The translations under genes were made by a program, and so were the position numbers. Shown piece by piece: positions 1,562 to 12,582 of a stretch of DNA of 12,582 nucleotides. Position 1 is the first letter of the stretch. Every line of letters starts with the position of its first letter. The notes under the pieces are model-generated. The model had not been told where the DNA came from. It worked only from the letters and a program-made list of their open reading frames with translations, and did no database searches. The DNA comes from Actinomycetes bacterium (lineage in GTDB: Bacteria > Actinomycetota > Aquicultoria > CAJVYJ01 > JAUVQD01). The stretch lies in contig JAUWIO010000007.1 of NCBI GenBank assembly GCA_030605305.1, positions 1 to 12,582 of the forward strand. Direction: 5' to 3'.

Positions 1562-3460
1562 TTGCAGAGAATTTTCAAGAGTGCCGGATTCTACTTGGTG
1601 CTCATTATACTTGTATTTTTCATCGCCCAGTCCTATCTAGGTACAGCCGAGAAGCCGAAATCGGTTCGTTTCGATCAATTCGTTCAAGACGTTCGAGACG
1701 GCAAGGTGAAAAAGGTCGTCGCGAAGGAACGCTCGAGGATCCTCACAGGGACCACGAAGGGCGGGGTCGAGTTCGAGACCAATTTTCCGGAAAACTTCGA
1801 TTACGCGCTCTTGCTGCAAAAAAATAAGGTGCAGCTCACTATAGATCCGCAAAACCGAAACGATTGGATCGGAATCGTCCTGAGCTTCCTGCCGTTCGTG
1901 CTGATATTCGTCTTATGGATGTTTATGCTCCAGCAGATGCAGGGCGGGGGCAACAAAGTCATGAGCTTTGGGAAGAGTCGCGCCAAAAAAGTATCTAAGG
2001 ATCAGCCCAGGGTCACTTTCAAGGACGTGGCCGGCGTTGAAGAGGCGGTCGAGGAGCTCCATGAGATCCAGGAATTCCTGTCCAACCCGATTAAATTCCA
2101 GTCCCTTGGGGCCAAGATACCTAAAGGAGTACTCCTGTTTGGTCCACCGGGATCAGGCAAGACTTTGCTGGCCCGGGCGGTCGCCGGCGAGGCCGGAGTG
2201 CCGTTTTACACTATCAGTGGCTCTGATTTCGTCGAGATGTTCGTCGGCGTAGGCGCGTCGCGGGTTCGCGACCTCTTTGAACAGGCTAAGGCGAACTCTC
2301 CCTCGATTATCTTCATGGACGAGATCGATGCTGTCGGGCGGCACCGGGGCGCGGGCCTCGGGGGCGGTCACGATGAAAGGGAACAGACCCTCAACCAGCT
2401 CCTAGTCGAGATGGATGGTTTCGACGTGAAGGATAATGTCATTCTGATAGCGGCGACCAACCGTCCCGACATTCTCGATCCGGCGCTTTTACGCCCCGGG
2501 CGCTTTGATCGTCAGATCATGGTTCCCCCGCCGGACCTGCCGGGACGCAAAGAGATCATCCGCGTCCACACACGCGGCAAACCACTGGCCAAGGGTGTCG
2601 ATCTCGAGGTTTTAGCTCGGCGTACCTCCGGGTTTACCGGCGCGGATCTAGCAAATGTCGTCAATGAAGCGGCTATTTTGGCTGCCAGGCATAACAAGAA
2701 GGTCATAGACATGGCCGAGCTGGAAGAGGCGACCGAGAGGGTCATGGTCGGCCCCGAGCGTAAATCTCGCCTTATTTCCGATAAGGAGAAAAAGCTGACA
2801 GCCTATCATGAGGCGGTCCATGCCGTGGTAGCGCACATGCTTCCATCGATTAAGGACCCGGTCCACAAGGTGTCGATCATCCCGCGCGGACGGGCCGGTG
2901 GGTATACTCTGATCCTTCCCGGTGAAGACCGCATGTACCGGGCCAAGTCCGAGCTTCTTGATGAAGTCGCGATGTTGTTGGGCGGCCGGGTGGCCGAGGA
3001 AGTCTTCATCGGCGATGTCACCACTGGAGCGCAGGACGATCTTGAGCGGGCCACAAAATTGGCGCGGCGAATGGTCTGCGAGTGGGGAATGAGTGAGGCC
3101 ATCGGGCCTCTCACGCTCGGTCAAAAGCAGCAAGAAGTCTTTTTAGGCCGAGATTTTGCCCACAATCCGGACTATAGCCCCGAGATCGCATTCGAGATCG
3201 ATAAAGAGATCCGCCGCATTATCGACGAGGGGATCGAAAAAGATAGGGTTATTCTGGTAGAGAAGAAAGCAACGCTGGAACGTATCGTGACGGAGCTTCT
3301 CGCCAAGGAGTCTCTGGAGCGCCAGGAATTGACAAGGTTGCTCGATGGTGAGACCGATGATCCACAGCCACCCTCGTCTGGCGAGCAGGAGAAACCTCAA
3401 CGGACCAGAAAGCCAAAGTTGAGCGACTTGCCCGGAAAGCTGCGCCCGGCCGAAAGCTAG
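1562..3460 (+). CDS. ftsH: ATP-dependent zinc metalloprotease FtsH
   Basis: Membrane-anchored hexameric AAA+ protease that extracts and degrades misfolded membrane proteins and short-lived regulators. The protein has 632 residues. TM1 is at about 9-25, a short extracytoplasmic domain at about 30-100, TM2 at about 102-122. In the AAA domain Walker A GPPGSGKT is at 194-201, the pore loop around F226, Walker B IIFMDEID at 249-256, and the second region of homology with arginine fingers R311 and R314. The zinc protease motif is HEAVH at 416-420, with the third ligand probably D493 in TTGAQDD. The usual motif is HEAGH, so Gly is replaced by Val here while His, Glu and His are kept. The start is TTG, chosen because AAAGGAG at 1546-1552 lies nine bases upstream and the frame begins with the expected TM1. 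The gap to hpt is 64 bases. The C-terminal tail (about 597-632) is charged and proline-rich. Confidence 0.97.
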
Positions 3461-3479: not shown

Positions 3480-4121
3480 TTAGTCTAGTCGTCGTCCGGT
3501 GGGCTGCACCGCTACAGAGCTGACGCCCATAGAGAATTGACGTCGATGCCGCAGGCGTAAGATATCCTTCAGGTCGGAGACGCCGTGCTTGATAGTTTCG
3601 ACGCTCAGGTCGAGTTGTTTGGCTATCTCCCGATTCGTCGCACCCCGCTGGAGCATTTCGAGAATCTCCTGCTCACGTTCGGTGAGCGGCGTTGTGATTA
3701 TCGGGGTCAAGGGGGCGACACTGCGGATGAAGGACATTAACATCTTCTTCGTGTAGAGCGGTTCGCCATCGGCGGCGCGTTCCAGAGAATCTACCAGTGT
3801 ATCTACATCGGCCTTTGAAAGACACCCGCTCGCGCCACTGGCCATCGAAGCATAGTGGACTTTTTCGTCCCCGGCCCGTTTTGTCAGCCAGACGACAGGG
3901 ATGTCTTGACCGAGTCCCCGGAGGAAACCGGTTACTTCAGCTGCCTCGCTTCCCGCATCGTCGAAATCTACGATACCGAGTGCAGAGGTCGAGTAAATCG
4001 AGCGGTTGCTTTCAATATCCCCGCTCGTTAGCCGTGTTAATTTGTGGCCAAAACTCTCGACAAGCTCGCCGACGGCGATGCTTTCGAGGTTATTGTTGGT
4101 CACCATGAGAAAATTAGCCAT
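3480..4121 (-). CDS. LuxR-type regulator with atypical receiver domain (paralog 1)
   Basis: Probable DNA-binding transcription regulator of 213 residues. Residues about 3-125 follow a NarL-like receiver fold. The phospho-acceptor Asp position (D52 in LGIVDFDD), the switch Thr (T80 in VVWLT) and the Lys (K103 in SGCLSK) are present. The acidic pair that binds Mg in true receivers is replaced by T8 and N9. Residues about 144-196 are a LuxR-type HTH: LTEREQEILEMLQRGATNRE, then IAKQLDLSVETIK. The recognition helix is divergent, HGV where the family usually has x-H-V. It is one of four paralogs in this window, all with the same WL[TS] and G-C/F-x-x-K signatures. It lies 98 bases downstream of the sensor gene on the same strand, so it may share its transcript, and it converges on ftsH with 19 bases between. 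The ATG has GTGAGG only two bases upstream, too close for a normal ribosome binding site. The target genes are unknown. Confidence 0.85.
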   Translation of the reverse strand: MANFLMVTNNNLESIAVGELVESFGHKLTRLTSGDIESNRSIYSTSALGIVDFDDAGSEAAEVTGFLRGLGQDIPVVWLTKRAGDEKVHYASMASGASGCLSKADVDTLVDSLERAADGEPLYTKKMLMSFIRSVAPLTPIITTPLTEREQEILEMLQRGATNREIAKQLDLSVETIKHGVSDLKDILRLRHRRQFSMGVSSVAVQPTGRRLD

Positions 4122-4181
4122 AACCTCACTATGCTAGTTGTATAAACTACCGCTTGAGAAGAATATCACAAGTAAGTCCGG

Positions 4182-4199
4182 CGCAACAAGCGTGTTGCG
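4182..4199. repeat. perfect 7-bp inverted repeat with 4-nt loop
   Basis: CGCAACA and TGTTGCG flank AGCG. The repeat lies 20 bases beyond the sensor stop codon and about 60 bases before the start of regulator paralog 1. No T-run follows on either strand, so a classical intrinsic terminator is unlikely. It could be an operator or an RNA hairpin that separates expression of the two genes. Confidence 0.5.
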
Positions 4200-4219
4200 A
4201 TTGAAATCTGCGACGCGGA

Positions 4220-6343
4220 TCAGCTGTCAGCTGTGTCTGTGGCCGGTGCGGTCGCCATGGCCGACCCTTGAATCTGTCCGACTAATCTAACGCCCATAAA
4301 CTTATTGCCATCCATGACCGTATGAACTTCCATTATCAACTCCCTGACTGTCTCTGAGGACTGAAATGTCAAGGTCAGCGTTGTGCTTGAGTCTCTTTTC
4401 TTCTCGATCACCTCAAACAATCGCTTGGCACTTTCCGGGGTCAGCACGTCACTGATGGTCATCTCGCCAATGTCCGTATCGCCAGCCTCAAGCACCTTGC
4501 GGGCTCCGCCACTTGTCGCGATGATCACGCCGACCGGATCGATCAGGATAACCGGGCCCGGCAAAGAAGCGAGCAGGTCTCTTTGTTGGGTGGAGAAGAC
4601 GTTTAGCTTTCCTAGCATCGTTTCCTTAACAAGCGCGAAGGCGAGCCGCTCTGCCAGGACTTCGACGAGCCGCTTGTCGGCATCGCTGAAGGTCCGCGCT
4701 TCTTCGCTGTGCAGTTGGAGGGCTCCGAGGACCTCATTATTGATGATCATCGGGGTCGCCAGCACGGCTCGCGTCGACATTCTCACGTCCGCGGCTGCCA
4801 AGAAGGGAGATGTCGACAGATCACTGATGTCCAAGGTCTTAGCGGCGCTGATCACGTTCTGTGCCAGCAGGCCCCATTCATCCGCGTGTGCATCCTGACG
4901 CCGCCCTTCATTCCAATAATTCTTCAGGACGGGCTTGCCGGCAGGAGAGAGAAAGATGGCAATGCTGCTCATGCCCATGAGCCTGGCCACTCTCTTCAGA
5001 ACGGGCTTAAGCTTGTTGTCTAGTCGGAGCTCTTCAAGGGGCAGTTCTGTTACGGTGTCGAAAAGGGTCAACAGTGACCGAATGGACTCGATGGTCTGCT
5101 CACTCTGTACCTCTCGCAAAGCGAAGTCCAAGGCGAAGGCCGAGGTTTCCACCACAGCTAAGTGCTCATCCGCCAACGTTCGACGGCACCCGAGCATCAG
5201 GAGTCCGTGCGACTTAGGCCCGTGGCCGAGCGGTATGAGCGCCAAGTGGTCGATAGTAGGGAAGCCCTCGCTGTCCGCCCAGTCCGGGAGCTTGCCTCTT
5301 GCATGTGGTGATTCGAATTTTATTCCGCTTCGTATGGCGTATTCCCCAATATCCCGCCGACCCAGTGTCTTTGCGGGGCTGGAGTCGAGGTCCAAGGCGA
5401 GGGAGCCGCCGATGACAAGATCATAATCGTGCTTGTTATTGAAGATGAAGCCGATGGCGTATTGCACCTCCGGGATGGATTCAAGCCGCGCCAAGGTGAC
5501 GGCGGCGATGTCGTCAGCGGTTGAATGGGTCACGTCGTTGATGGTCGCTCGCACAATCGCCAGGCTGTTCAGGGCACCGCTGCGTTCGCTTTCGCTGCGT
5601 CCTACATTGCGGCGCGCATCGCTGACCGCCCGAAAACTGCTGGTCAAGACTCTTGCCAACTCGCCGACTTCATCATCCCCTGTGACATCGATATCAATGA
5701 CGTCGCCCTGGTTCTTTAGCATATTCCGGGCAGAGTGCGTGATCTGCTTGATCCGCCCCGAGACCATGCGCGTCAACCAAAAACCGAGTCCGAGCGCCAA
5801 CACGATCAAGGTCGTCGAACTGATCAGGATGAGCTCGTTGATTCTCCCGATGTCAGTCTCGAGCGCCGCGTTCATGGCAACCAATTGCTGTCCTTCTAGA
5901 TCATAAAGATCCTTGGCCAAGCTTGACGTGGCCTGTAAGTCGTTTCGATAGTTTTGATCGATATCTCCCAAGACCGACGGCGAGAACAATTTTTTAATCG
6001 ATGACCTCAGATTTCGCAAGCGTCGCGTTTCCTCGGGTATCAGATTTGGCTCGCGAAGGATATCGTTGGCGAGCCGGTGTGCTCGAGAAAGCTCTTCAGC
6101 GAGATGCAGCTGCTCGGCCTCTGATGTGGGAGCCAACTTCGCGTGATTGATCGCGTGGTCCATCTCGCTGCGGATCATCTGGATCTTGTGCGCGCGCTCA
6201 TACCGCTCGGCGTATTGCTGTGATTGACCCATGAACTCAGAGGTGATCAAGTACTTATACGCATCGACACTTATGGCCGCCAAAATAAAGAGCGAGACGA
6301 CCACAATTGCTTTTCCGGCGAGTGTAAGCCTTAGTTTGCGCAT
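4220..6343 (-). CDS. membrane sensor protein, 4HB-HAMP-GAF-GAF-PAS, no output domain
   Basis: A 707-residue signalling protein. TM1 is at about 11-28. An extracytoplasmic, strongly helical region of about 140 residues (30-168) resembles a four-helix-bundle ligand sensor. TM2 is at about 170-190. A HAMP linker is at about 190-245 (DDEVGELARVLTSSF near its end). Two GAF-like domains follow at about 265-410 and 430-570, then a PAS-like domain at about 588-690 (LPGPVILIDPVGVIIATSGG). After the PAS there is only a low-complexity Ala/Thr/Asp tail. No DHp His box, HATPase N/G boxes, GGDEF, EAL, PP2C or methyl-accepting hairpin is visible, so the usual kinase or cyclase output is absent. The following intergenic space (98 bases) has no room for a lost output domain. 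Regulator paralog 1 is next downstream and paralog 2 is divergent, which suggests it acts through those regulators, but that is inference. No Shine-Dalgarno is seen; a TATAAT box ends 6 bases before the ATG. Confidence 0.82.
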   Translation of the reverse strand: MRKLRLTLAGKAIVVVSLFILAAISVDAYKYLITSEFMGQSQQYAERYERAHKIQMIRSEMDHAINHAKLAPTSEAEQLHLAEELSRAHRLANDILREPNLIPEETRRLRNLRSSIKKLFSPSVLGDIDQNYRNDLQATSSLAKDLYDLEGQQLVAMNAALETDIGRINELILISSTTLIVLALGLGFWLTRMVSGRIKQITHSARNMLKNQGDVIDIDVTGDDEVGELARVLTSSFRAVSDARRNVGRSESERSGALNSLAIVRATINDVTHSTADDIAAVTLARLESIPEVQYAIGFIFNNKHDYDLVIGGSLALDLDSSPAKTLGRRDIGEYAIRSGIKFESPHARGKLPDWADSEGFPTIDHLALIPLGHGPKSHGLLMLGCRRTLADEHLAVVETSAFALDFALREVQSEQTIESIRSLLTLFDTVTELPLEELRLDNKLKPVLKRVARLMGMSSIAIFLSPAGKPVLKNYWNEGRRQDAHADEWGLLAQNVISAAKTLDISDLSTSPFLAAADVRMSTRAVLATPMIINNEVLGALQLHSEEARTFSDADKRLVEVLAERLAFALVKETMLGKLNVFSTQQRDLLASLPGPVILIDPVGVIIATSGGARKVLEAGDTDIGEMTISDVLTPESAKRLFEVIEKKRDSSTTLTLTFQSSETVRELIMEVHTVMDGNKFMGVRLVGQIQGSAMATAPATDTADS

Positions 6344-6349
6344 GGCTTA

Positions 6350-6355
6350 ATTATA
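6350..6355 (-). promoter_or_regulatory. -10 box of a probable leaderless promoter for the sensor gene
   Basis: On the minus strand a perfect TATAAT is followed by six bases (TAAGCC) and then the sensor ATG at 6343. Transcription would start at or next to the A of the ATG, and no ribosome binding site is present, which together suggest a leaderless mRNA. The -35 candidate at 17 bp is only TTACTA, three of six matches to consensus. Confidence 0.5.
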
Positions 6356-6377
6356 TTAGAAAGCCATTGATATAGTA

Positions 6378-6394
6378 ACTCCTAAAGCAGGAGT
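6378..6394. repeat. perfect 6-bp inverted repeat with 5-nt loop
   Basis: ACTCCT and AGGAGT flank AAAGC. It lies about 35 bases upstream of the sensor ATG, just upstream of or overlapping the -35 position of the candidate sensor promoter, which is where a repressor or activator could bind. It is short, so chance occurrence is possible. Confidence 0.35.
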
Positions 6395-6421
6395 AAGCCA
6401 CCAAACTAGGTATGGCGTTCA

Positions 6422-6439
6422 GGTAACCATTTGGTTACC
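6422..6439. promoter_or_regulatory. 18-bp perfect palindrome, candidate operator in divergent promoter region
   Basis: GGTAACCATTTGGTTACC consists of two perfect 8-bp arms (GGTAACCA / TGGTTACC) around TT. It sits between the divergent sensor gene and regulator paralog 2. Its centre is about 70 bp upstream of the predicted start of the rightward transcript, a usual activator position, and about 88 bp from the sensor ATG. Two-fold symmetry suits a dimeric HTH protein such as the LuxR-type regulators encoded here. The binding protein is inferred, not shown. Confidence 0.6.
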
Positions 6440-6464
6440 GTATAAGACAGTTCACGGTCGTATT

Positions 6465-6493
6465 TTGACCGCTTACCGAGAAACTGTTATCTT
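6465..6493 (+). promoter_or_regulatory. sigma-70-like promoter for regulator paralog 2
   Basis: TTGACC at 6465-6470 and TATCTT at 6488-6493 are separated by exactly 17 bp, close to the TTGACA/TATAAT consensus. Transcription would begin near 6500. This leaves a 5' leader of about 36 bases to the GTG at 6536 and supports that start over the TTG at 6512. Confidence 0.65.
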
Positions 6494-6535
6494 AGTGTAG
6501 TCAAGCGAGCATTGTCGAAAAAGGGGTCGGTGCAT

Positions 6536-7252
6536 GTGACGGAGAAAAAAACCAACCGTTCGGATCATCCAAAACTCTTTATTATCGATAAGAACCCCCT
6601 TGAGTTGATCGGCCTTCGGACTATCCTTTCAGACTGCACTATCAAGGTCTATTCAGACGACATGATGATCAGCCGAGCTATCATCGCGGAGCTCGAGGAT
6701 TGGGAACCGCAAGCCATTCTTGCCGACGTTGTTTCTTATGACCGGGAGATGGACACATTCACCAGGGCTGTCCGTCGCAAGCTTGATATCCCGATTCTAT
6801 GGCTAACTCCTTCAGATGATCGCGAATACACGATCGATGCGGTCACGGCCGGCGCCGCTGGATGCGTACCGAAGGACGACTTTCAGATGATAGGCGACGC
6901 GCTGGACGCGATTCTCGCGGACAGGGTCTTCTTCTCCGCCAAAGTGCTGGCGAATTTCGCTTTTGATATAGGTCTCTTCTGTCCGCCCAGCGGGCGGCAT
7001 ATCAAGAATCTAACGAACAAGGAGAGGCAGATATTCATGTTGATGCGCGAGGGGGCGACAAACTACCAGATCGCCACAGAGCTCAGCATAAGCGTTGAAA
7101 CCGTCAAGGCCCATATTCGCAGCATCCGGAATACTTATGGAGCGCTCAGCAAACGGCAGCTGGTGCCTCAGATACCCTTTACCGAGCAGAAGGTCCTCGA
7201 TGAGGAAGCAGCGAAACCACCGACCTCGATCGTGGGTCAAAGCGCTAGCTAA
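6536..7252 (+). CDS. LuxR-type regulator with atypical receiver domain (paralog 2)
   Basis: Probable transcription regulator, 238 residues from the chosen start. Residues about 13-130 are receiver-like, starting KLFIIDKNPLELIGLR. D18 keeps one half of the acidic pair, but the second position is K19. The phospho-acceptor position D64, T91 in WLT and K113 in CVPK are retained. The LuxR HTH is at about 157-209 (LTNKERQIFMLMREGATNYQ, then SISVETVKAHIRSIRN), followed by a 28-residue acidic tail. Start choice: GTG at 6536 has AAGGGG at 6521-6526, nine bases upstream, and suits the predicted transcript start near 6500. A TTG at 6512 would add eight residues but lacks a clear ribosome binding site. 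It is divergent from the sensor gene and shares the palindrome-bearing region with it. It converges on regulator paralog 3 with 22 bases between them. Confidence 0.83.
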   Translation: MTEKKTNRSDHPKLFIIDKNPLELIGLRTILSDCTIKVYSDDMMISRAIIAELEDWEPQAILADVVSYDREMDTFTRAVRRKLDIPILWLTPSDDREYTIDAVTAGAAGCVPKDDFQMIGDALDAILADRVFFSAKVLANFAFDIGLFCPPSGRHIKNLTNKERQIFMLMREGATNYQIATELSISVETVKAHIRSIRNTYGALSKRQLVPQIPFTEQKVLDEEAAKPPTSIVGQSAS

Positions 7253-7274
7253 TCCGATCTACCAGGTCAACAGC

Positions 7275-7898
7275 TCAGCAATCTCGGCTATTAAGCCCGA
7301 GAGCCTTGCGTATATGACGCAGATGAACTTTGACCGTTTCCGCACTTATACTCAGCGCTATGGCGATCTGCTTGTTGGTAGCTCCGGACTGCACTTGATC
7401 TAAAACCTCGTTCTCCCGCGCGCTCAGGGATCGACTACGGCCGGGGTGATGAGGCGCCAGTAACTGGACATGCTTGATGTAACGCATCAGCACATCAGGA
7501 GAGAAATGGTAGTCGTCGTCAGCCACCGCTAAGAACGCGTCTGAAATGTCCGTGACCCTTGCTTTATTCGCAAAGCCATCGGCCCCGGCGCGTATGGCTA
7601 GGAATTTCCCGCGATCTGTCTGATCCCGCGACATCCAGACGACCGCTGTCTCAGCAAAACGACCCTTCACTGCCTGCGTCACTCGTTCCGGCTCCAGGCC
7701 CGGTGAGTCGAAGTCTAAGCAGATCACATTTCTTTCGATAAAGGAGTCGATATCCGGTGGCGCGTTCTCATCACATAAGATCATGTGAACGGTGTTTTCA
7801 CTGCTATCTTCCAGCAGCGCCTGCATCCCGACCAGCTCTAGGCGGTTGCTGCCGACGATTACGACCTTGAGTTCGCTGCTCGCCGCCGCTATACTCAT
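7275..7898 (-). CDS. LuxR-type regulator with degenerate receiver domain (paralog 3)
   Basis: Probable transcription regulator of 207 residues, the last gene of the cytochrome operon. Receiver-like residues about 10-130: the acidic pair is lost altogether (G16, S17 in VVIVGSNRLELVG), while D62 (CLDFDSPG), S90 (VVWMS) and K112 (ANK) are kept. The LuxR HTH at about 157-205 includes LSARENEVLDQVQSGATNKQ and ISAETVKVHLRHIRK. The ATG at 7898 overlaps the stop of the upstream cytochrome gene as ATGA, which suggests translational coupling. It also places the receiver about ten residues from the N-terminus, as in paralog 4. An in-frame start at 7985 would run deep into the cytochrome gene. The protein stops at NSRDC, where the other paralogs continue S-[KR]-R-Q-L, so the C-terminus is slightly short. 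Confidence 0.83.
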   Translation of the reverse strand: MSIAAASSELKVVIVGSNRLELVGMQALLEDSSENTVHMILCDENAPPDIDSFIERNVICLDFDSPGLEPERVTQAVKGRFAETAVVWMSRDQTDRGKFLAIRAGADGFANKARVTDISDAFLAVADDDYHFSPDVLMRYIKHVQLLAPHHPGRSRSLSARENEVLDQVQSGATNKQIAIALSISAETVKVHLRHIRKALGLNSRDC

Positions 7899-9055
7899 TT
7901 GCCGGTGAAGGTCGTCCCTGGCGGCGGTTTCTGCCCGGTCGAATGGCATGTAGTACAAAACTCCGGTTGATGACAAGACCAGCACTCATCCGCGCCCGCC
8001 TCTTCAACAAACCGCATGGCCGCCTCCACCCACGGCTTACCGATGTCCGGGTAACGCTCATAAAAACTTTTGTGATGACAGGCCATGCAATAGTCGCTGT
8101 CTCTCTTTTTGTTCCATTTGGAATCGTGGCACATCGCGCATGGCGCCCGACTGGTCTGCTCAGCCACAATAAAGTGAATCTCGCGCCACGGCTTCTCGGT
8201 TTCTGCCGCGAATCTGCCGCCATATTCTTGTATGTTGTGGGGCATCGCTATCCCCCCATGGCACTCCTTTGCGCACCAGTCCTGGCGGTCATGGCAACCG
8301 AAACAGGTCTTGAAATCAACTTTCTTGGCCACTTTGCCGTGGCGTAGTGTCCCGGAACCCCAAGGGATCTCGTTTTCGATTGAATGGTTGATCGAGCCGG
8401 TCGTCGGTTTAAGTTCCCAGTCACTGTCATGGCAGGTCTTGCATTCGGTCGGCGGATTGGCGCTCGCCGGCAGAGAGGCCAGTAATTCGTCGTCTCTTAA
8501 GGCCGGTTCGAGACCGTGGCAGCGCCAGCATCCTTGGATCATGTTGAGCCCGTCGCTTCGCTCACCGATCCGGGCGTCTGTGGGGTCAGCTGGCTTCTGG
8601 AGCGGATGCGCTACCAGGTTATGACAGGTTATACAAGCTATGTCGTTCTCTAAGTGCTTTTCGTGATTCATCTTTAGCCCTCGCGTAACGGTGAAGCGTC
8701 TTTTCTCCGGCGAATGACATTGACGGCACATTTCGTCTGCGACGGGCGGGAGCAAGCTTTGTCCTAACTCTAGGGCGCCGGTGCTGGAACTATCCGGCGC
8801 CATCGCTAAGAAGTGTCCCGGTCCTAGCCTGCTAAAGCTTTGAAGTCCTCGATCGATGTGGCAAGCCGCGCAGGTGACATTGGCATGAGACGATCGGCCC
8901 CAACTCTCGATAGTCTGGGCTTGGGCGTGGCACGCCAGGCAGATTCGCGGCCCCACGGCCGCGCCCATTGTAATGACTCCGGCGAACGTGATGAGCAGGA
9001 CCGCTGAGCCGGCGTAAAGTAATAGTAGGAAACGAGATCTAGTGGCTCGCACCAT
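7895..9055 (-). CDS. membrane-anchored dodecaheme-like c-type cytochrome
   Basis: Multiheme cytochrome of 386 residues, expected to sit outside the membrane on an N-terminal TM anchor (about 9-33) and to carry electrons. Eleven CXXCH haem motifs begin at residues 39, 62, 110, 141, 176, 205, 251, 306, 323, 358 and 367. A CX3CH motif, CAKECH, at 261-266 may hold a twelfth haem. The N-terminal half aligns with the upstream 8-haem cytochrome; compare the RxFTxxxGxxMxHxKH pattern before motif 4, then WRCH and CKTCH. The two are therefore tandem paralogs, this one extended by a C-terminal haem block. Unlike its paralog it has Gln rather than Met after the first motif (CHAQ). Start: ATG at 9055 with GAGGA about six bases upstream, preferred over an in-frame TTG at 9067. 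It overlaps the preceding gene by 17 bases and the following regulator by four. The electron donor and acceptor are unknown. Confidence 0.88.
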   Translation of the reverse strand: MVRATRSRFLLLLYAGSAVLLITFAGVITMGAAVGPRICLACHAQAQTIESWGRSSHANVTCAACHIDRGLQSFSRLGPGHFLAMAPDSSSTGALELGQSLLPPVADEMCRQCHSPEKRRFTVTRGLKMNHEKHLENDIACITCHNLVAHPLQKPADPTDARIGERSDGLNMIQGCWRCHGLEPALRDDELLASLPASANPPTECKTCHDSDWELKPTTGSINHSIENEIPWGSGTLRHGKVAKKVDFKTCFGCHDRQDWCAKECHGGIAMPHNIQEYGGRFAAETEKPWREIHFIVAEQTSRAPCAMCHDSKWNKKRDSDYCMACHHKSFYERYPDIGKPWVEAAMRFVEEAGADECWSCHQPEFCTTCHSTGQKPPPGTTFTGK

Positions 9056-9968
9056 CGGTGTCCTCAACCGGCTCGACTTCCCATGACCGTCCGATCAAGC
9101 TCTCGACTAATGGTTTATCGTGACAAAGCGTACACCATGGCTCAGCTCCATTGGCGAACCTGGCCGTTTCGCTATGACAGTTCATGCAATTGTCAATATC
9201 CTCTTTAGCTTTTGCGCCGTGTTCGGTTGCCCTTCGCCAGATCTCGCGATTGTGCCCCGCTGGTAGATCGAAGTCTTTTGTATGGCAGGTCTTGCAAGCT
9301 TGCGGCGGTTTCTTTCCATTTTTAATGTGCGCCATTGTCTCTTCGGAACGGCCTTCTGCACTGGCGCTATGACAGCGAAAGCAACCATACTTCATGGTCA
9401 GAAAGTCACTGTATTCGAATTCCGGGTCCCAGCTTTTCAGAGGTTCGTATTTTTCAGCCCCCTTATGGACCACTCGATTATGGCAAACTGTGCAGTTGAT
9501 ACCGGCGGCCTTGTGCTTGTTGTGTTCCATATAGATACCTTTGGAGAACGTGAACTTGCGGTTTTCGTTATTGTGGCAGCGCTCGCACCGCTCCATTGGT
9601 ATGAGTTCTTGGCTCAAATGACTATGTTCGTTGATCGGCTGTTCGAAGCGCCCGGTCAGTTCCTGAAAGGGTCCCTTAATATCGACGAACATCTTTCCGT
9701 ACAAGAGTTTCGCGTATGACCTGGGACCGTGACATCCGTAGCAGGGGATCTGCGCGTGTGAGGACTTCTTCCAGGTCTCAATCTGAGGGGTCATACTATG
9801 GCATACATTGCAAAAAGCCGGGTTAGAGGACGCAGTTAGAATAGCCGGGAACGCAAAGGCGCCCACCAACACGACGGCCGCCCCATACAGCATGAGGGCA
9901 AAGCGATATTCCTTTTCGGGCAGCCTCTTTCTGACCGCCCTCAGTCTTTCGCGCAGTCGCAATCTCAT
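9039..9968 (-). CDS. NapC/NirT-like octaheme c-type cytochrome
   Basis: Multiheme cytochrome of 309 residues. A basic N-terminus is followed by one TM helix (about 23-45), acting as a membrane anchor. Eight CXXCH motifs begin at residues 53, 76, 128, 159, 196, 225, 261 and 279. The first pair follows the NapC/NirT pattern: FCNVCHSM, with Met following the His as in quinol-oxidising NapC proteins, then SSHAQIPCYGCH. By family analogy it may take electrons from menaquinol and pass them to the neighbouring larger cytochrome, but this is inference. The start is ATG with AAGGAG five bases upstream, a strong ribosome binding site. It follows regulator paralog 4 after 87 bases on the same strand. 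Its 3' end overlaps the next cytochrome gene by 17 bases, so the two are probably made together. No haem maturation genes are in the window. Confidence 0.88.
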   Translation of the reverse strand: MRLRLRERLRAVRKRLPEKEYRFALMLYGAAVVLVGAFAFPAILTASSNPAFCNVCHSMTPQIETWKKSSHAQIPCYGCHGPRSYAKLLYGKMFVDIKGPFQELTGRFEQPINEHSHLSQELIPMERCERCHNNENRKFTFSKGIYMEHNKHKAAGINCTVCHNRVVHKGAEKYEPLKSWDPEFEYSDFLTMKYGCFRCHSASAEGRSEETMAHIKNGKKPPQACKTCHTKDFDLPAGHNREIWRRATEHGAKAKEDIDNCMNCHSETARFANGAEPWCTLCHDKPLVESLIGRSWEVEPVEDTDGASH

Positions 9969-10055
9969 TGATCTCCTTCAGTATGCATTAAGGGTGCGAT
10001 AGTTTGGTTTTCGTGCGGTGACACCGGGTGGGCGTCGATCTCGTTCACCAAAACC

Positions 10056-10739
10056 CTAAACCAACTGCTTCGTCGGCTGGTTTCTGTTGGAGCGCGTTCG
10101 CGAAGGAATGCCGTCGAGCAACTGACGTCGCGATGCGACGCCGAGTTTCTTTCTGACGTTCTTGACATGTATCTTTACTGTTTCGACGGAGATAAAAAGC
10201 TCTTCTGCTATTTCGCGGTTCTTGGAGCCCACTCTGAGCAGCTCCAATACTTGTCTCTCTCGCGTTGTAAGACCAGCTAGTTGCCGCCCGGACCTAGAGA
10301 ATAAGACTGATGCCCGCCTCGAAAAGTCGAGGAGCAGCTCTTTACTAAACAGTATTTTCCCGCTAGCCGCCCCCTCAACAGCGCCAATGATCGCTTCGAA
10401 GTCGAGTTTCGAGACGCATCCGTCGGCGTGAGCGTTTATGGCATCAAAGGCTAGGAGTTCGTCGTCGCACGCTGAGAGCCAAACAATATAGGTTTTTGGC
10501 AGCTTTGCCTTAACGAAGCGCGTGAACTCTTCGAGTTCGTCCTTGAGAGAGTTGGCGTCGATCAAGAGGACATTAAGGTCAGCATCGTCAAGCCGCGACA
10601 ACATCATTCCTGTTTCCATGAAGTGTTCGGTTACGACGTCGATGTCTGCGCCTTGCAGTATCCGATCGATGCCCGTGGCCTCTAAATAGCTGTTGTCGAG
10701 AACAGCTACCTTTGTGGTTTTATCGGTCAAGCTTCTCAT
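10056..10739 (-). CDS. LuxR-type regulator with atypical receiver domain (paralog 4)
   Basis: Probable transcription regulator of 227 residues. Receiver-like residues about 9-130 start KVAVLDNSYLEATGI. D15 keeps one acidic-pair position and N16 replaces the other. The phospho-acceptor position D61 (LLIDAN), S89 (VWLS) and K111 (CVSK) are present. The LuxR HTH at about 156-208 has the most typical sequence of the four (LTTRERQVLELLRVGSKNRE, then SVETVKIHVKNVRKKLGV). The C-terminal tail is basic. It is upstream of the cytochrome pair on the same strand and is likely to control it or to be co-transcribed with it. No clear Shine-Dalgarno precedes the ATG. TAAAAT lies ten bases before it, so a very short leader is possible. 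Confidence 0.85.
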   Translation of the reverse strand: MRSLTDKTTKVAVLDNSYLEATGIDRILQGADIDVVTEHFMETGMMLSRLDDADLNVLLIDANSLKDELEEFTRFVKAKLPKTYIVWLSACDDELLAFDAINAHADGCVSKLDFEAIIGAVEGAASGKILFSKELLLDFSRRASVLFSRSGRQLAGLTTRERQVLELLRVGSKNREIAEELFISVETVKIHVKNVRKKLGVASRRQLLDGIPSRTRSNRNQPTKQLV

Positions 10740-10755
10740 CTTGAGTTACATTTTA

Positions 10756-10769
10756 CGTGCTAAAGCACG
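10756..10769. repeat. 14-bp perfect palindrome upstream of regulator paralog 4
   Basis: CGTGCT and AGCACG flank AA. The palindrome is immediately upstream of a TAAAAT sequence (minus strand) that could be the -10 box of paralog 4, so it would lie between the -10 and -35 positions, a repressor-type location. No good -35 hexamer was found. No T-run follows on either strand, so it does not look like a terminator. Confidence 0.4.
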
Positions 10770-10834
10770 CCCCAACAGCGGTCACTTAGGGTGTTTTCCG
10801 TTACATGGAGGAGGGGCAAGCTAAACCGAAACGG

Positions 10835-11023
10835 TTAAGTGTCTTCACCTAGTTGGGGAATCGTGGAGGTGTCGGTCATGACTGACACCCGCCGTTCTTC
10901 AGTATCCACCAGCGACTGCCTTGAGATATGCCGGGCCGCCGCGATCAGTAAGCCGGCCCCGATAAAGACCGAAAAACCGAATCCGACAACATAGAGGTAG
11001 ACAAACGTCTCTACTGCCATCAA
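10835..11023 (-). CDS. small single-helix membrane protein (paralog A)
   Basis: Protein of 62 residues with no recognised family. A short N-terminus with Glu5 leads into one hydrophobic helix (about 6-29, FVYLYVVGFGFSVFIGAGLL), then a basic turn (R31, R35) and an acidic-polar tail, presumably cytoplasmic. It is a real gene because a second copy upstream (11177-11362) shares 20 of the first 33 residues by hand alignment, including ETFVYLY, VGF and LLI, and nucleotide similarity extends into the ribosome binding region. The start is taken as TTG at 11023, nine bases after GGGAG; an ATG at the next codon is possible. Its place upstream of regulator paralog 4 and the cytochromes suggests a small accessory subunit of a membrane redox complex. 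The length and topology are loosely like CcmD, but the sequence match is too weak to name it. Confidence 0.65.
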   Translation of the reverse strand: MMAVETFVYLYVVGFGFSVFIGAGLLIAAARHISRQSLVDTEERRVSVMTDTSTIPQLGEDT

Positions 11024-11082
11024 TTAAATCATCTCCCTAAGGGTCCGTTATGGCTATCCTTAACTTACCTATGGAGGAAGCG

Positions 11083-11124
11083 CCTTGGTATAACACCTTT
11101 AGACAGATATGCGTTAAACCAAGG
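11083..11124. repeat. imperfect 12-bp inverted repeat between the small membrane protein genes
   Basis: CCTTGGTATAAC at 11083-11094 and GTTAAACCAAGG at 11113-11124 pair with a single mismatch around an 18-base spacer. It lies in the 153-base gap between the two paralogous small genes. It could form a hairpin in their transcript (processing or stability) or be a spaced operator. No T-run follows. Confidence 0.45.
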
Positions 11125-11176
11125 GGTGTGTTTCCGGCTCAGTCAAAGCCGCCGCGATTGCAGGCCCCGGCCACGA

Positions 11177-11362
11177 TCACTCGGAATCGGACCAGCTGCG
11201 CAGGATCTCCTTGCCTTTGCCGTTTGTCTGAATGGTCTTCGATCGGCTTTTTTCGGATTTCGCGATTTGGCGGGCGGCACCGATCAGTAGCGCGACAGCC
11301 ACGCCCGTGCTCACGATGAATCCAACGATGTAAAGATAGACAAATGTCTCTATCGCCAGCAA
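11177..11362 (-). CDS. small single-helix membrane protein (paralog B)
   Basis: Protein of 61 residues, paralog of the small membrane protein at 10835-11023. One hydrophobic helix (about 6-29, FVYLYIVGFIVSTGVAVALL) is preceded by Glu5 and followed by a basic, Lys/Ser-rich cytoplasmic-type tail that differs from paralog A. The start is taken as TTG at 11362: it lies nine bases after GAGGGG and aligns exactly with the TTG start of paralog A. A GTG at 11371 would add three residues with worse spacing. It is divergent from panB and may be the first gene of the leftward cytochrome transcript, though no convincing promoter was found for it. Function unknown. Confidence 0.62.
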   Translation of the reverse strand: MLAIETFVYLYIVGFIVSTGVAVALLIGAARQIAKSEKSRSKTIQTNGKGKEILRSWSDSE

Positions 11363-11460: not shown

Positions 11461-12306
11461 ATGGATATGAACAAGATGACGGTGCAAGGGCTCAGGGAAA
11501 AGAAGGCCGCGGGCGAAAAGATAGTCGCTCTGACCGTCTGGGATGACTTCTCGGGCGGCCTAGCACAGGCGGCCGGGGTCGACCTGGCCCTGGTCGGAGA
11601 CTCTTTGGCCATGACCGTGCAGGGTGAAACCGACACCCTTGCCGTCACGTTAGATGAGATGATCTATCATTCGCGTTTGGCCGCTCGGGCCTGTCAGTCT
11701 CCGTTGCTTATTACCGATCTTCCCTTTATGTCATATCAGGTCGGCTCAGAGCAGGCGTTGCAAAGCTCCGGGCGTGTTTTGAAGGAAACGAAAGCCCGCG
11801 GCGTGAAAATGGAGGGTGGCCGCGAGCTTTCGGAGAGCGTGGCCAGGGTGACGGCGGCCGGTATCCCGGTCGTCGGACACATAGGGTTGACGCCCCAAGC
11901 CGTCCATCAGCTGAGCGGCTATAAGGTTCAGGGCAAGTCGGTAGATGCGGCTCGCCGCCTGGTGTTAGACGCTCGGGCTCTTGATGACGCCGGTATTTGT
12001 GCTTTGGTCCTAGAGTATGTCCCGAGCGAACTAGCCGCCCACATATCAAAGATAATCGGGGCGCCCACCCTTGGTATCGGCGCCGGTGCCGGTTGTGATG
12101 GCCAAATCCAGGTGACCGCCGATATATTGGGGCGGGGAACGCGAGTGCCGAGGCACGCGAAAGGCTTTGCCAACATACGGGATAAAGCCGCGAGCGCGTT
12201 GCTTGCGTATGCCGAGGAAGTGCGCGGCGGCGAATTTCCCAGCGCCGAGCAGGCCATTTCGGCCGATGATGAGTTGCGTCGAGCCATCGAAGCTGGAGAT
12301 CTGTAG
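11461..12306 (+). CDS. panB: 3-methyl-2-oxobutanoate hydroxymethyltransferase (ketopantoate hydroxymethyltransferase)
   Basis: First committed step of pantothenate (vitamin B5, coenzyme A) synthesis: it adds a hydroxymethyl group from 5,10-methylene-THF to alpha-ketoisovalerate, giving ketopantoate. The protein has 281 residues, normal for the family. Mg- and substrate-binding residues are in place: VGDS with D47, TDLPF with D86, GVKMEGG with K116, and the catalytic Glu E185 in VLEYVP. Also present are GHIGLTPQ (139-146), GYKVQGK (153-159) and GIGAGAGCDGQIQV (205-218). The usual TAYD near the N-terminus reads TVWD here. Start: the ATG at 11461 gives the family-standard N-terminus and follows a TATAAT box by six bases. 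A frame open from 11344 would add 39 unconserved residues. No panC or panD is in the window. Confidence 0.96.
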   Translation: MDMNKMTVQGLREKKAAGEKIVALTVWDDFSGGLAQAAGVDLALVGDSLAMTVQGETDTLAVTLDEMIYHSRLAARACQSPLLITDLPFMSYQVGSEQALQSSGRVLKETKARGVKMEGGRELSESVARVTAAGIPVVGHIGLTPQAVHQLSGYKVQGKSVDAARRLVLDARALDDAGICALVLEYVPSELAAHISKIIGAPTLGIGAGAGCDGQIQVTADILGRGTRVPRHAKGFANIRDKAASALLAYAEEVRGGEFPSAEQAISADDELRRAIEAGDL

Positions 12307-12331: not shown

Positions 12332-12582
12332 TTACGGTTGGAGGGCGTGCTCGGAGATGAGCGTCCCCTTGATTGAATCTAGATAAGCATGAATGGTCTC
12401 AAGGGCCCCATGGCAGTACGGAGAGTCAAGTGACCCGTTGATGTTCGCCGCCGAGATGGCGCATCCGCCCCCGCAAAGAGTGGCGATCGGGCAGTCGCGG
12501 CAGGCCTTTAGCGACAGAATGCTGCGGCCGTTCCAATTCGACAGCGCTGCTTCGTTCAAGAAAAAATCCGGATAGTATCGAC
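12332..12582 (-). CDS. radical SAM protein, C-terminal SPASM domain (partial, start outside window)
   Basis: The last 83 codons or so of a gene that enters from beyond the right edge. The visible end has the SPASM auxiliary iron-sulfur signature CX2CX5CX3C (CRDCPIATLCGGGC), followed after a gap by PYC. This is the arrangement seen in radical SAM enzymes that modify ribosomal peptides or proteins (PqqE, anaerobic sulfatase-maturating enzyme and thioether-forming families). The radical SAM core with its CX3CX2C motif lies outside the window, so the substrate cannot be told. The frame is open to the window edge; a TTG inside it at 12559 is not the real start. It converges on panB with 25 bases between. 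Confidence 0.8.
   Translation of the reverse strand, partial: RYYPDFFLNEAALSNWNGRSILSLKACRDCPIATLCGGGCAISAANINGSLDSPYCHGALETIHAYLDSIKGTLISEHALQP

Follow-up and report, generated by a model that had tools for sequence, protein, structure and literature searches.

The locus between ftsH and panB raises the question of why four regulators of one subfamily are packed around two multiheme cytochromes, and what such regulators might respond to. The window analyzed here is one whole contig of 12,582 bp from a genome assembly of 1.31 Mb (305 contigs, 75% complete). The ftsH-panB interval of about 8 kb was found to carry two single-helix peptides, two cytochromes, a kinase-less membrane sensor, and four regulators of the NarL/FixJ type (RR1 to RR4). 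RR2 lies on the plus strand, and all other island genes lie on the minus strand. The features are as follows:

1562 to 3460, plus strand: ftsH, left flank
3480 to 4121, minus strand: RR1, atypical NarL/FixJ-type regulator, 213 aa, GerE 43 bits
4220 to 6343, minus strand: membrane sensor, 707 aa, HAMP, GAF, and PAS
6422 to 6439: perfect palindrome GGTAACCA-TT-TGGTTACC, candidate operator in the divergent sensor/RR2 intergenic region
6465 to 6493, plus strand: sigma-70-like promoter match upstream of RR2, a consensus match only
6512 to 7252, plus strand: RR2, atypical regulator
7275 to 7898, minus strand: RR3, atypical regulator
7895 to 9055, minus strand: cytB, 12-heme membrane-anchored c-type cytochrome, 386 aa
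9039 to 9968, minus strand: cytA, 8-heme c-type cytochrome with a NapC/NirT (NrfH-like) N-terminal part, 309 aa
10056 to 10739, minus strand: RR4, atypical regulator, 227 aa, between tm2 and cytA
10835 to 11020, minus strand: tm2, single-helix peptide
11083 to 11124: inverted repeat between tm1 and tm2, possible operator or hairpin
11177 to 11362, minus strand: tm1, single-helix peptide, first gene of the presumed operon
11461 to 12306, plus strand: panB, right flank

Every element that a first-pass annotation had listed between the two housekeeping genes was located in the sequence, and the three sets of paralogues that it had proposed hold up. The regulators each possess a GerE/LuxR DNA-binding domain (PF00196; 43-69 bits, cut-off 23.5) and share about 29-37% pairwise identity; the cytochromes are 37% identical (query residues 10-262, E 5e-39); and the peptides are 54% identical over 39 residues, in a match that runs slightly past the tm2 start through a stop, and 38% over the whole alignment. 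Helix-turn-helix models of the resolvase and transposase types also match the LuxR domains, but weakly and below cut-off. The crowding of one regulator subfamily around two cytochromes, which had been called unusual, is clearly non-random, as the genome search found five NarL-type regulators and four of these sit in the island. A search of the assembly with RR4 returned six matches at E<=0.01, four of them in the window; the other two were one ordinary regulator and one MalT-type protein, matched at its DNA-binding end only.

Phylogenetic analysis placed RR1 to RR4 within one divergent subfamily (100/100), and recovered orthologue groups for RR1 (3 rows, 100/100), RR3 (5 rows, 99/100), and RR4 (8 rows, 98/92). 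The orthologues of these three in the protein databases are 43-78% identical to them, including P0030 (75%) and P0031 (73%) for RR1. Because each has its own orthologue group, RR1, RR3, and RR4 appear to be old, separately kept paralogues, and a recent tandem duplication of the regulators was rejected. RR2 is the sister of the RR4 group, and no orthologue of it was found among the regulator matches listed (120 of 184). An exclusive clade of the island regulators was neither shown nor rejected (p-AU 0.44); the same topology test on the island types and their orthologues, with the orphans removed, gave p-AU 0.42. For RR3 the most probable start is ATG 7898, which overlaps the stop of cytB (ATGA); GTG 7985 is less likely. 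The protein ends 17 residues past the recognition-helix Lys, compared with 13-16 in its orthologues and a minimum of 27 in 103 others; as judged from these lengths, the RR3 group lacks the last helix usual in the DNA-binding domain.

A regulator is classed as atypical if its receiver lacks at least one of the residues DD, D, T, and K, as set out in an excerpt of PMC12632262, and all four island regulators lack at least one phospho-site residue. In the same order, the receiver residues are T-N/D/T/K in RR1, D-K/D/T/K in RR2, G-S/D/S/K in RR3, and D-N/D/S/K in RR4, and the switch position K-3 is occupied by Cys in RR1, RR2, and RR4, and by Phe in RR3. The full set of five phospho-site residues was present in 1 of the 24 rows of the subfamily, which include three window-own or near-identical copies, versus 122 of 131 others, and Cys was present at K-3 in 17 of the 24 versus 1 of the 131. 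Leaving the window copies aside, both RR1 orthologues and six of the seven RR4 orthologues have this Cys. The receiver model PF00072 gave below-cut-off matches to RR1, RR2, and RR4, and no match to RR3. By sequence, RR1 to RR4 are probably pseudo-receiver regulators in which part of the phosphorylation site is lost, and this partial loss suggests that they sense something else, perhaps the redox state of the cell.

The membrane sensor consists of a hydrophobic helix (residues ~3-33), an intervening region, a second hydrophobic helix (~168-191), and HAMP, GAF, and PAS domains, of which GAF scored above its Pfam cut-off (55.7 bits) and HAMP (21.4) and PAS (20.0) a little below. The absence of an output domain, read in the first pass, was borne out: no kinase (HisKA/HATPase) or other output domain was present among the Pfam and NCBIfam matches, and kinase models matched only the HAMP, GAF, and PAS regions, far below cut-off. 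No orthologue of the sensor was found in 36 genomes of the class, the best match outside the window scoring 33 bits over the GAF stretch. Matches to the sensor occur in 26 of the 36, counting the window's genome. Its structure, predicted from the single sequence, was of low confidence and uninformative (mean pLDDT 41.8).

One alternative is that the regulators are ordinary NarL-like phospho-switches, served by a kinase encoded elsewhere or by a small phosphodonor, and that the cytochromes are nitrate/nitrite- or metal-respiration targets. None of the four regulators has lost the phospho-acceptor Asp or the Lys, and in one RR4 orthologue, P0025, the phospho-site is complete at all five residues, so some phosphorylation may still occur. 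Of the two acidic residues, one survives in RR2 and in RR4, but neither does in RR1, in RR3, or in the RR3 orthologues, and RR1, RR2, and RR4 no longer have the aromatic residue at K-3. NarL-type models (NarL, MctR) match RR2, RR3, and RR4 over nearly their whole length and RR1 in part, in all cases below cut-off, and far below it in the three. The assembly lacks a quarter of the genome, which speaks for this alternative; the island sensor has no kinase domain, and the one HisKA_3 kinase found in the genome lies on another contig. Taken together, a conventional phospho-switch is considered unlikely.

The minus-strand genes tm1-tm2-RR4-cytA-cytB-RR3 probably form one operon, because of their order, the ATGA overlap of cytB and RR3, and the 17-bp overlap of cytA and cytB. 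CytA contains eight CXXCH motifs, and cytB eleven plus one CX3CH. Both were matched by the NapC/NirT N-terminal module (PF03264; 58.6 bits for cytA and 38 for cytB, cut-off 24.1), and both scored below the cut-off of 134.2 for the NrfH model TIGR03153 (78.8 and 32.6 bits). CytA also matched PDB 2j7a_C (E 3e-7). The structure predicted for cytB from a 9-row alignment was of low confidence and uninformative (mean pLDDT 42.5), and neither tm1 nor tm2 matched any Pfam family above its cut-off. The sensor/RR2 palindrome, a pattern chosen after being seen, is the sole such site in the window's genome at up to two mismatches, with none in G001-G003. The inverted repeat between tm1 and tm2 has 12-nt arms, 92% complementary, spaced by 18 nt. 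Promoter and terminator scans gave counts no higher than in shuffles, with six sigma-70-like matches in the region versus 4.9 expected.

A second alternative holds that the regulators and sensor, on the one hand, and the cytochromes, on the other, were joined by chance at a tolerant ftsH/panB site, and that the regulators act on other genes. In four relatives (G002, G003, G004, G006) ftsH is followed directly by panB, with a gap of 26-67 bp, and the island is therefore specific to the window's lineage; the empty site also speaks for this second alternative. Among the 36 class genomes, subfamily regulators were scored only in G018, G029, and the window's genome, and those in G018 and G029 have only unrelated genes for neighbours on the stretches read. 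In G005 and G012, of the same class, an octaheme cytochrome likewise has a single-helix peptide immediately upstream, with no regulators on the stretches read. Chance lodging sits poorly with RR3 starting inside the cytB stop, RR4 lying between tm2 and cytA, and the share of the genome's NarL-type regulators held by the island. The RR1 orthologue P0031 and the cytB orthologue P0004, moreover, have matching contig sizes (57,577 bp) and sources, and appear to lie on one contig. Evidence for regulator-cytochrome linkage outside the window is thin, and consists of this one shared size: the cytB orthologues P0006, P0008, and P0002, whose contigs measure 18.7, 13.5, and 10.3 kb, had no same-size regulator contig among the 120 of 184 matches listed, and the RR3 orthologue P0034 (12.1 kb contig) had no same-size cytB contig among 17, in a comparison where both searches can miss. 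The window's own contig likewise appears at 12,582 bp in both match lists. A chance association is judged improbable. The first-pass annotation had named recurrence of the set in related genomes as support for a module, and the neighbourhood analysis upheld this in part: RR1, RR3, and RR4 are kept as orthologue groups elsewhere, the peptide/octaheme pair recurs, and RR1 and cytB apparently share one contig, but no general module was found in the relatives, where the site is empty or the regulators stand alone.

The island is also unlikely to be a mobile element, a candidate rejected on three grounds: none of its nine genes matched an integrase or transposase family above cut-off in Pfam, only short repeats lie near its junctions, and no cytB relative was found among viral contigs and plasmids. 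Nor was an alien composition seen: the tetranucleotide correlation of the island with other genome pieces (0.886) falls within the range of 0.843-0.944 for six other contigs, chosen because they carry cytochromes or regulators and so no random sample. An assembly or binning artefact, with the block foreign to this position, is very improbable: the window is a short contig of a fragmented draft and the sole assembly read across the junctions, but its ftsH shares 75-79% identity with members of its family, its composition fits, and near-identical tm1 and RR4 copies occur on other contigs, listed without a source.

The reading favored here, with slightly better than even confidence, is that of a lineage-specific respiratory island, combining a membrane electron-transfer operon with phosphorylation-independent pseudo-receiver NarL-type regulators. 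CytA, an octaheme protein with a NapC/NirT domain and NrfH similarity, would take electrons from membrane menaquinol and hand them to the 12-heme cytB, with tm1 and tm2 as putative small membrane partners of the chain. The regulators would work without ordinary aspartyl phosphorylation, acting as homo- or heterodimers on candidate island operators, with RR3, short of its last DNA-binding helix, as a possible modulating partner. The kinase-less sensor may provide their input, either by contact or through control of how available they are. More speculative, and on balance doubtful, is a private phosphorylation-free redox circuit, in which the four regulators, three of them with Cys instead of the aromatic of the Y-T switch, would read the redox state produced by the island cytochromes through thiols or quinone, heterodimerize with the truncated RR3 as partner, and set expression of the chain.

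Several known systems resemble parts of this arrangement. CytA shares an N-terminal membrane helix and a NapC/NirT module with the NrfH/NapC/NirT quinol dehydrogenases (PDB 2j7a), but has eight hemes and does not reach the equivalog cut-off for NrfH, and none of the nine island genes was identified as a nitrite reductase. NarXL, NarPQ, and other LuxR-type two-component systems, which control respiratory genes, likewise join a receiver-like domain to GerE, whereas the island has no kinase and its phospho-sites are incomplete. BldM and WhiI are of the NarL/FixJ type, and KaiA binds quinone via its pseudo-receiver. In Streptomyces, of the same phylum, BldM and WhiI are orphan atypical regulators that use a palindromic operator and form heterodimers, as described in part of PMC4125116, a logic like that proposed here; they are two developmental regulators, in contrast to the island's four co-located with cytochromes. 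An excerpt of PMC12632262 presents HP1021/Cj1608 (CemR) and RitR as redox-switched atypical regulators, and KaiA as binding a redox-active quinone, so that pseudo-receivers can follow redox state or quinone rather than phosphorylation. Their cysteines lie at DD+19 in the HP1021 type and in the linker of RitR, whereas those of the island regulators lie at K-3, and the families differ. In the literature search, the only paper combining "multiheme" and "atypical response regulator" was PMC6456294, an extract of which concerns Geobacter GacA.

The on/off switching of bacterial pseudo-receivers has been called a mystery (PMC12632262, in excerpt). The island places four members of one divergent subfamily beside plausible targets, and provides a residue-level prediction, Cys at K-3 and no phosphorylation, that is testable in the laboratory. 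It also ties a small one-helix peptide to octaheme cytochromes, a pairing present in three of the class's genomes.

The contig that forms the window (G000:C109) comes from a 1.31-Mb draft genome that is 75% complete, and nine genes were counted between the ftsH stop (3460) and the panB ATG (11461). On the minus strand, the order of transcription is tm1, tm2, RR4, cytA, cytB, RR3, and then the sensor and RR1; RR2 is a plus-strand gene that diverges from the sensor and converges on RR3. The cytA and cytB genes overlap by 17 bp, and the likely ATG of RR3 overlaps the cytB stop. The two cytochromes are paralogues, as are the single-helix peptides tm1 and tm2. Pfam searches identified GerE in all four regulators, NapC/NirT plus c7/c3-type domains in both cytochromes, and a HAMP-GAF-PAS arrangement in the sensor (HAMP and PAS scoring below cut-off), with no kinase domain among the sensor's matches. 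When a cytB profile was run against the named public genomes, the five best matches were actinobacterial MAG contigs, four titled 'Actinomycetes bacterium isolate CSMAG_...' and one 'uncultured actinobacterium'; we take CSMAG to denote a cold-seep MAG. At the contig end, a 75-aa ORF (12332-12559, minus strand) contains a Cys-rich stretch, CRDCPIATLCGGGCAISA, and presumably resembles the terminal part of a radical-SAM SPASM domain.

The first-pass annotation had placed the four LuxR-type regulators in one subfamily, and a tree of 35 class regulators bore this out: RR1-RR4, one protein of genome G018 and two of G029 formed one group (100/100), with 28 ordinary regulators outside it. An RR4 search of the window's own genome gave six matches at E<=0.01, four of them inside the window, the others being an ordinary regulator (C28) and a MalT-type protein (C179) matched through its DNA-binding end only. 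Across 396 phylum genomes, with at most seven candidates scored per genome, matches above 260 bits were confined to G000 (four), G029 (two) and G018 (one); the next best reached 138 bits, a gap widened by building the profile from those same seven regulators. A profile of the four regulators was compared with 5.8 billion proteins, of which the 7,995 with the most words in common were scored; it yielded 184 matches at E<=1e-10, with details taken from the best 120. Among the matches listed, P0022, P0023 and P0024 correspond to the window's own regulators or near-identical copies, and orthologues were found for RR4 (P0025-P0029, P0033, P0036), RR1 (P0030, P0031) and RR3 (P0032, P0034, P0035, P0037), P0025-P0037 being 43-78% identical to their island regulators. 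A second tree, of 38 rows picked by hand, supported the RR1 (100/100), RR3 (99/100) and RR4 (98/92) groups, and placed RR2 as sister to the RR4 group (97/86); no RR2 orthologue was seen among the best 120 of the 184.

The receiver domains were aligned as 24 subfamily rows and 131 others (28 from the class and 103 listed protein matches). The complete five-residue phospho-site was present in one subfamily row (P0025), compared with 122 of the 131 others; four of the 131 have gaps at the acidic pair. All four island regulators keep the phospho-site Asp and Lys, while RR1 and RR3 have lost both acidic residues and RR2 and RR4 one. Past the recognition-helix Lys, 13-17 residues remain in RR3 and its orthologues, at least 27 in 103 others, and 20-21 in three of four orphan-type rows. 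We take the RR3-group shortening to remove the final helix of the GerE domain, although database rows could be cut by contig ends; in GerE-type domains this helix serves dimerisation. Cys occupies the position three residues before the Lys (K-3) in 17 of 24 subfamily rows (15 of 21 without the three window copies), compared with 1/131 others; the RR3 group has Phe there, and P0036 Tyr. K-3 is the aromatic position of Y-T coupling, and RR1-RR4, each lacking at least one phospho-site residue, would fall within the definition of atypical regulators, both as described in PMC12632262.

The intergenic region between the sensor and RR2 holds a perfect 8+8 palindrome (6422-6439). The pattern, picked after being seen, has no other site in G000 with up to two mismatches, and is absent in G001-G003. 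Either this palindrome or an inverted repeat in the tm1/tm2 gap (11083-11124) could, from its sequence, be a candidate operator.

Linkage of such regulators with cytochromes in relatives, as a dedicated module would imply, held up in part. In its favor, the RR1 orthologue P0031 (73%) and the cytB orthologue P0004 (~50%) are each listed with 57,577 bp as the longest contig and with ncbi + ena as database sources; because size and sources agree, we read them as lying on one contig. The window's own contig shows likewise as 12,582 in both match lists, and no further size coincidence was found among the matches listed. Against it, the subfamily members of G018 and G029 stand isolated among unrelated genes in the stretches read. 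In G001-G005, regulator matches and listed cytochrome matches lie on different contigs; G006 gave no regulator match at the same threshold. On G003:C29, two other multiheme genes are ~9 kb away from an ordinary regulator. For cytB orthologues on 10.3-, 13.5- and 18.7-kb contigs, no regulator on a same-sized contig was among the matches listed, possibly through search misses.

The flanking genes were sought in 12 genomes, including G000. In four (G002, G003, G004 and G006), ftsH and panB are adjacent on one strand, spaced by 26, 29, 29 and 67 bp, respectively; thus, the island is specific to the window's lineage. They sit on separate contigs in G005 and G008, and ~3.6 kb apart on one contig in G012; in G001, G009, G011 and G017, one or both genes went unmatched at the search thresholds. 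G001, the sole same-genus genome (74% complete), matched neither, and is therefore uninformative on this site. Since ftsH and panB touch in two families, gain in the window's lineage is a simpler reading than loss elsewhere. The composition of the island fits the genome (tetranucleotide correlation 0.886, against 0.843-0.944 for six other contigs), none of its nine genes matched a Pfam mobility family above cut-off, and its ends showed no clear terminal repeat.

A tm1 search of 36 genomes gave three weak matches outside the window. Each of those on G005:C193 (E 2e-4) and G012:C15 (E 0.013) is closely followed by a same-strand octaheme gene, and their translations look like short peptides ('MAVGMFIWIYAV...' and 'VAIGEIVWLYF...'); the third (G006:C113, E 0.08) is on a contig with no heme gene among its ORFs. 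In G012, a clear ribosome-binding site precedes both peptide and cytochrome. A profile built from the four peptides recovered these four alone above noise (E ~1e-19 or below, against 0.017 for the next match), in line with how it was made. No such peptide was found in the upstream stretches read for the cytA-like genes of G001:C96 and G000:C124, the latter stretch being cut by the contig end. On G005:C193 (L101, 2-2195), a tandem row of octaheme cytA-like genes follows the peptide: two, plus a third truncated at the contig end. The first is apparently frame-shifted near its start, with start and body in different frames.

Two further arrangements were observed at other multiheme loci. In two genera of the family, genes for O-antigen-ligase-like proteins (PF04932; 12-transmembrane, with TPR repeats) are placed right among those for multiheme cytochromes, and a 12-heme cytB-like gene is convergent to a gene pair in G001, G003 and G004.

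Features at other multiheme loci
L094 3455-5317 (G000:C144), O-antigen-ligase-like protein, PF04932 + TPR
L104 5083-7080 (G002:C99), O-antigen-ligase-like protein, PF04932 + TPR
L097 1460-5445 (G001:C166), cytB-like gene and pair matching MotA/TolQ/ExbB and a putative Ig domain
L103 2174-6006 (G003:C171), cytB-like gene and convergent pair
L105 1-3611 (G004:C30), cytB-like gene and convergent pair

The N-terminal part of cytA is similar to NrfH (2j7a_C, E 3e-7), but cytA scores below the NrfH cut-off and has eight hemes, and is therefore not filed as NrfH; we infer that it works like a quinol dehydrogenase. Because the island has no kinase, and one HisKA_3 kinase was found elsewhere in the genome, control of the regulators independent of phosphorylation is the simpler reading. 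Precedents are the BldM/WhiI heterodimers (PMC4125116) and pseudo-receivers that respond to thiols or ligands (PMC12632262).
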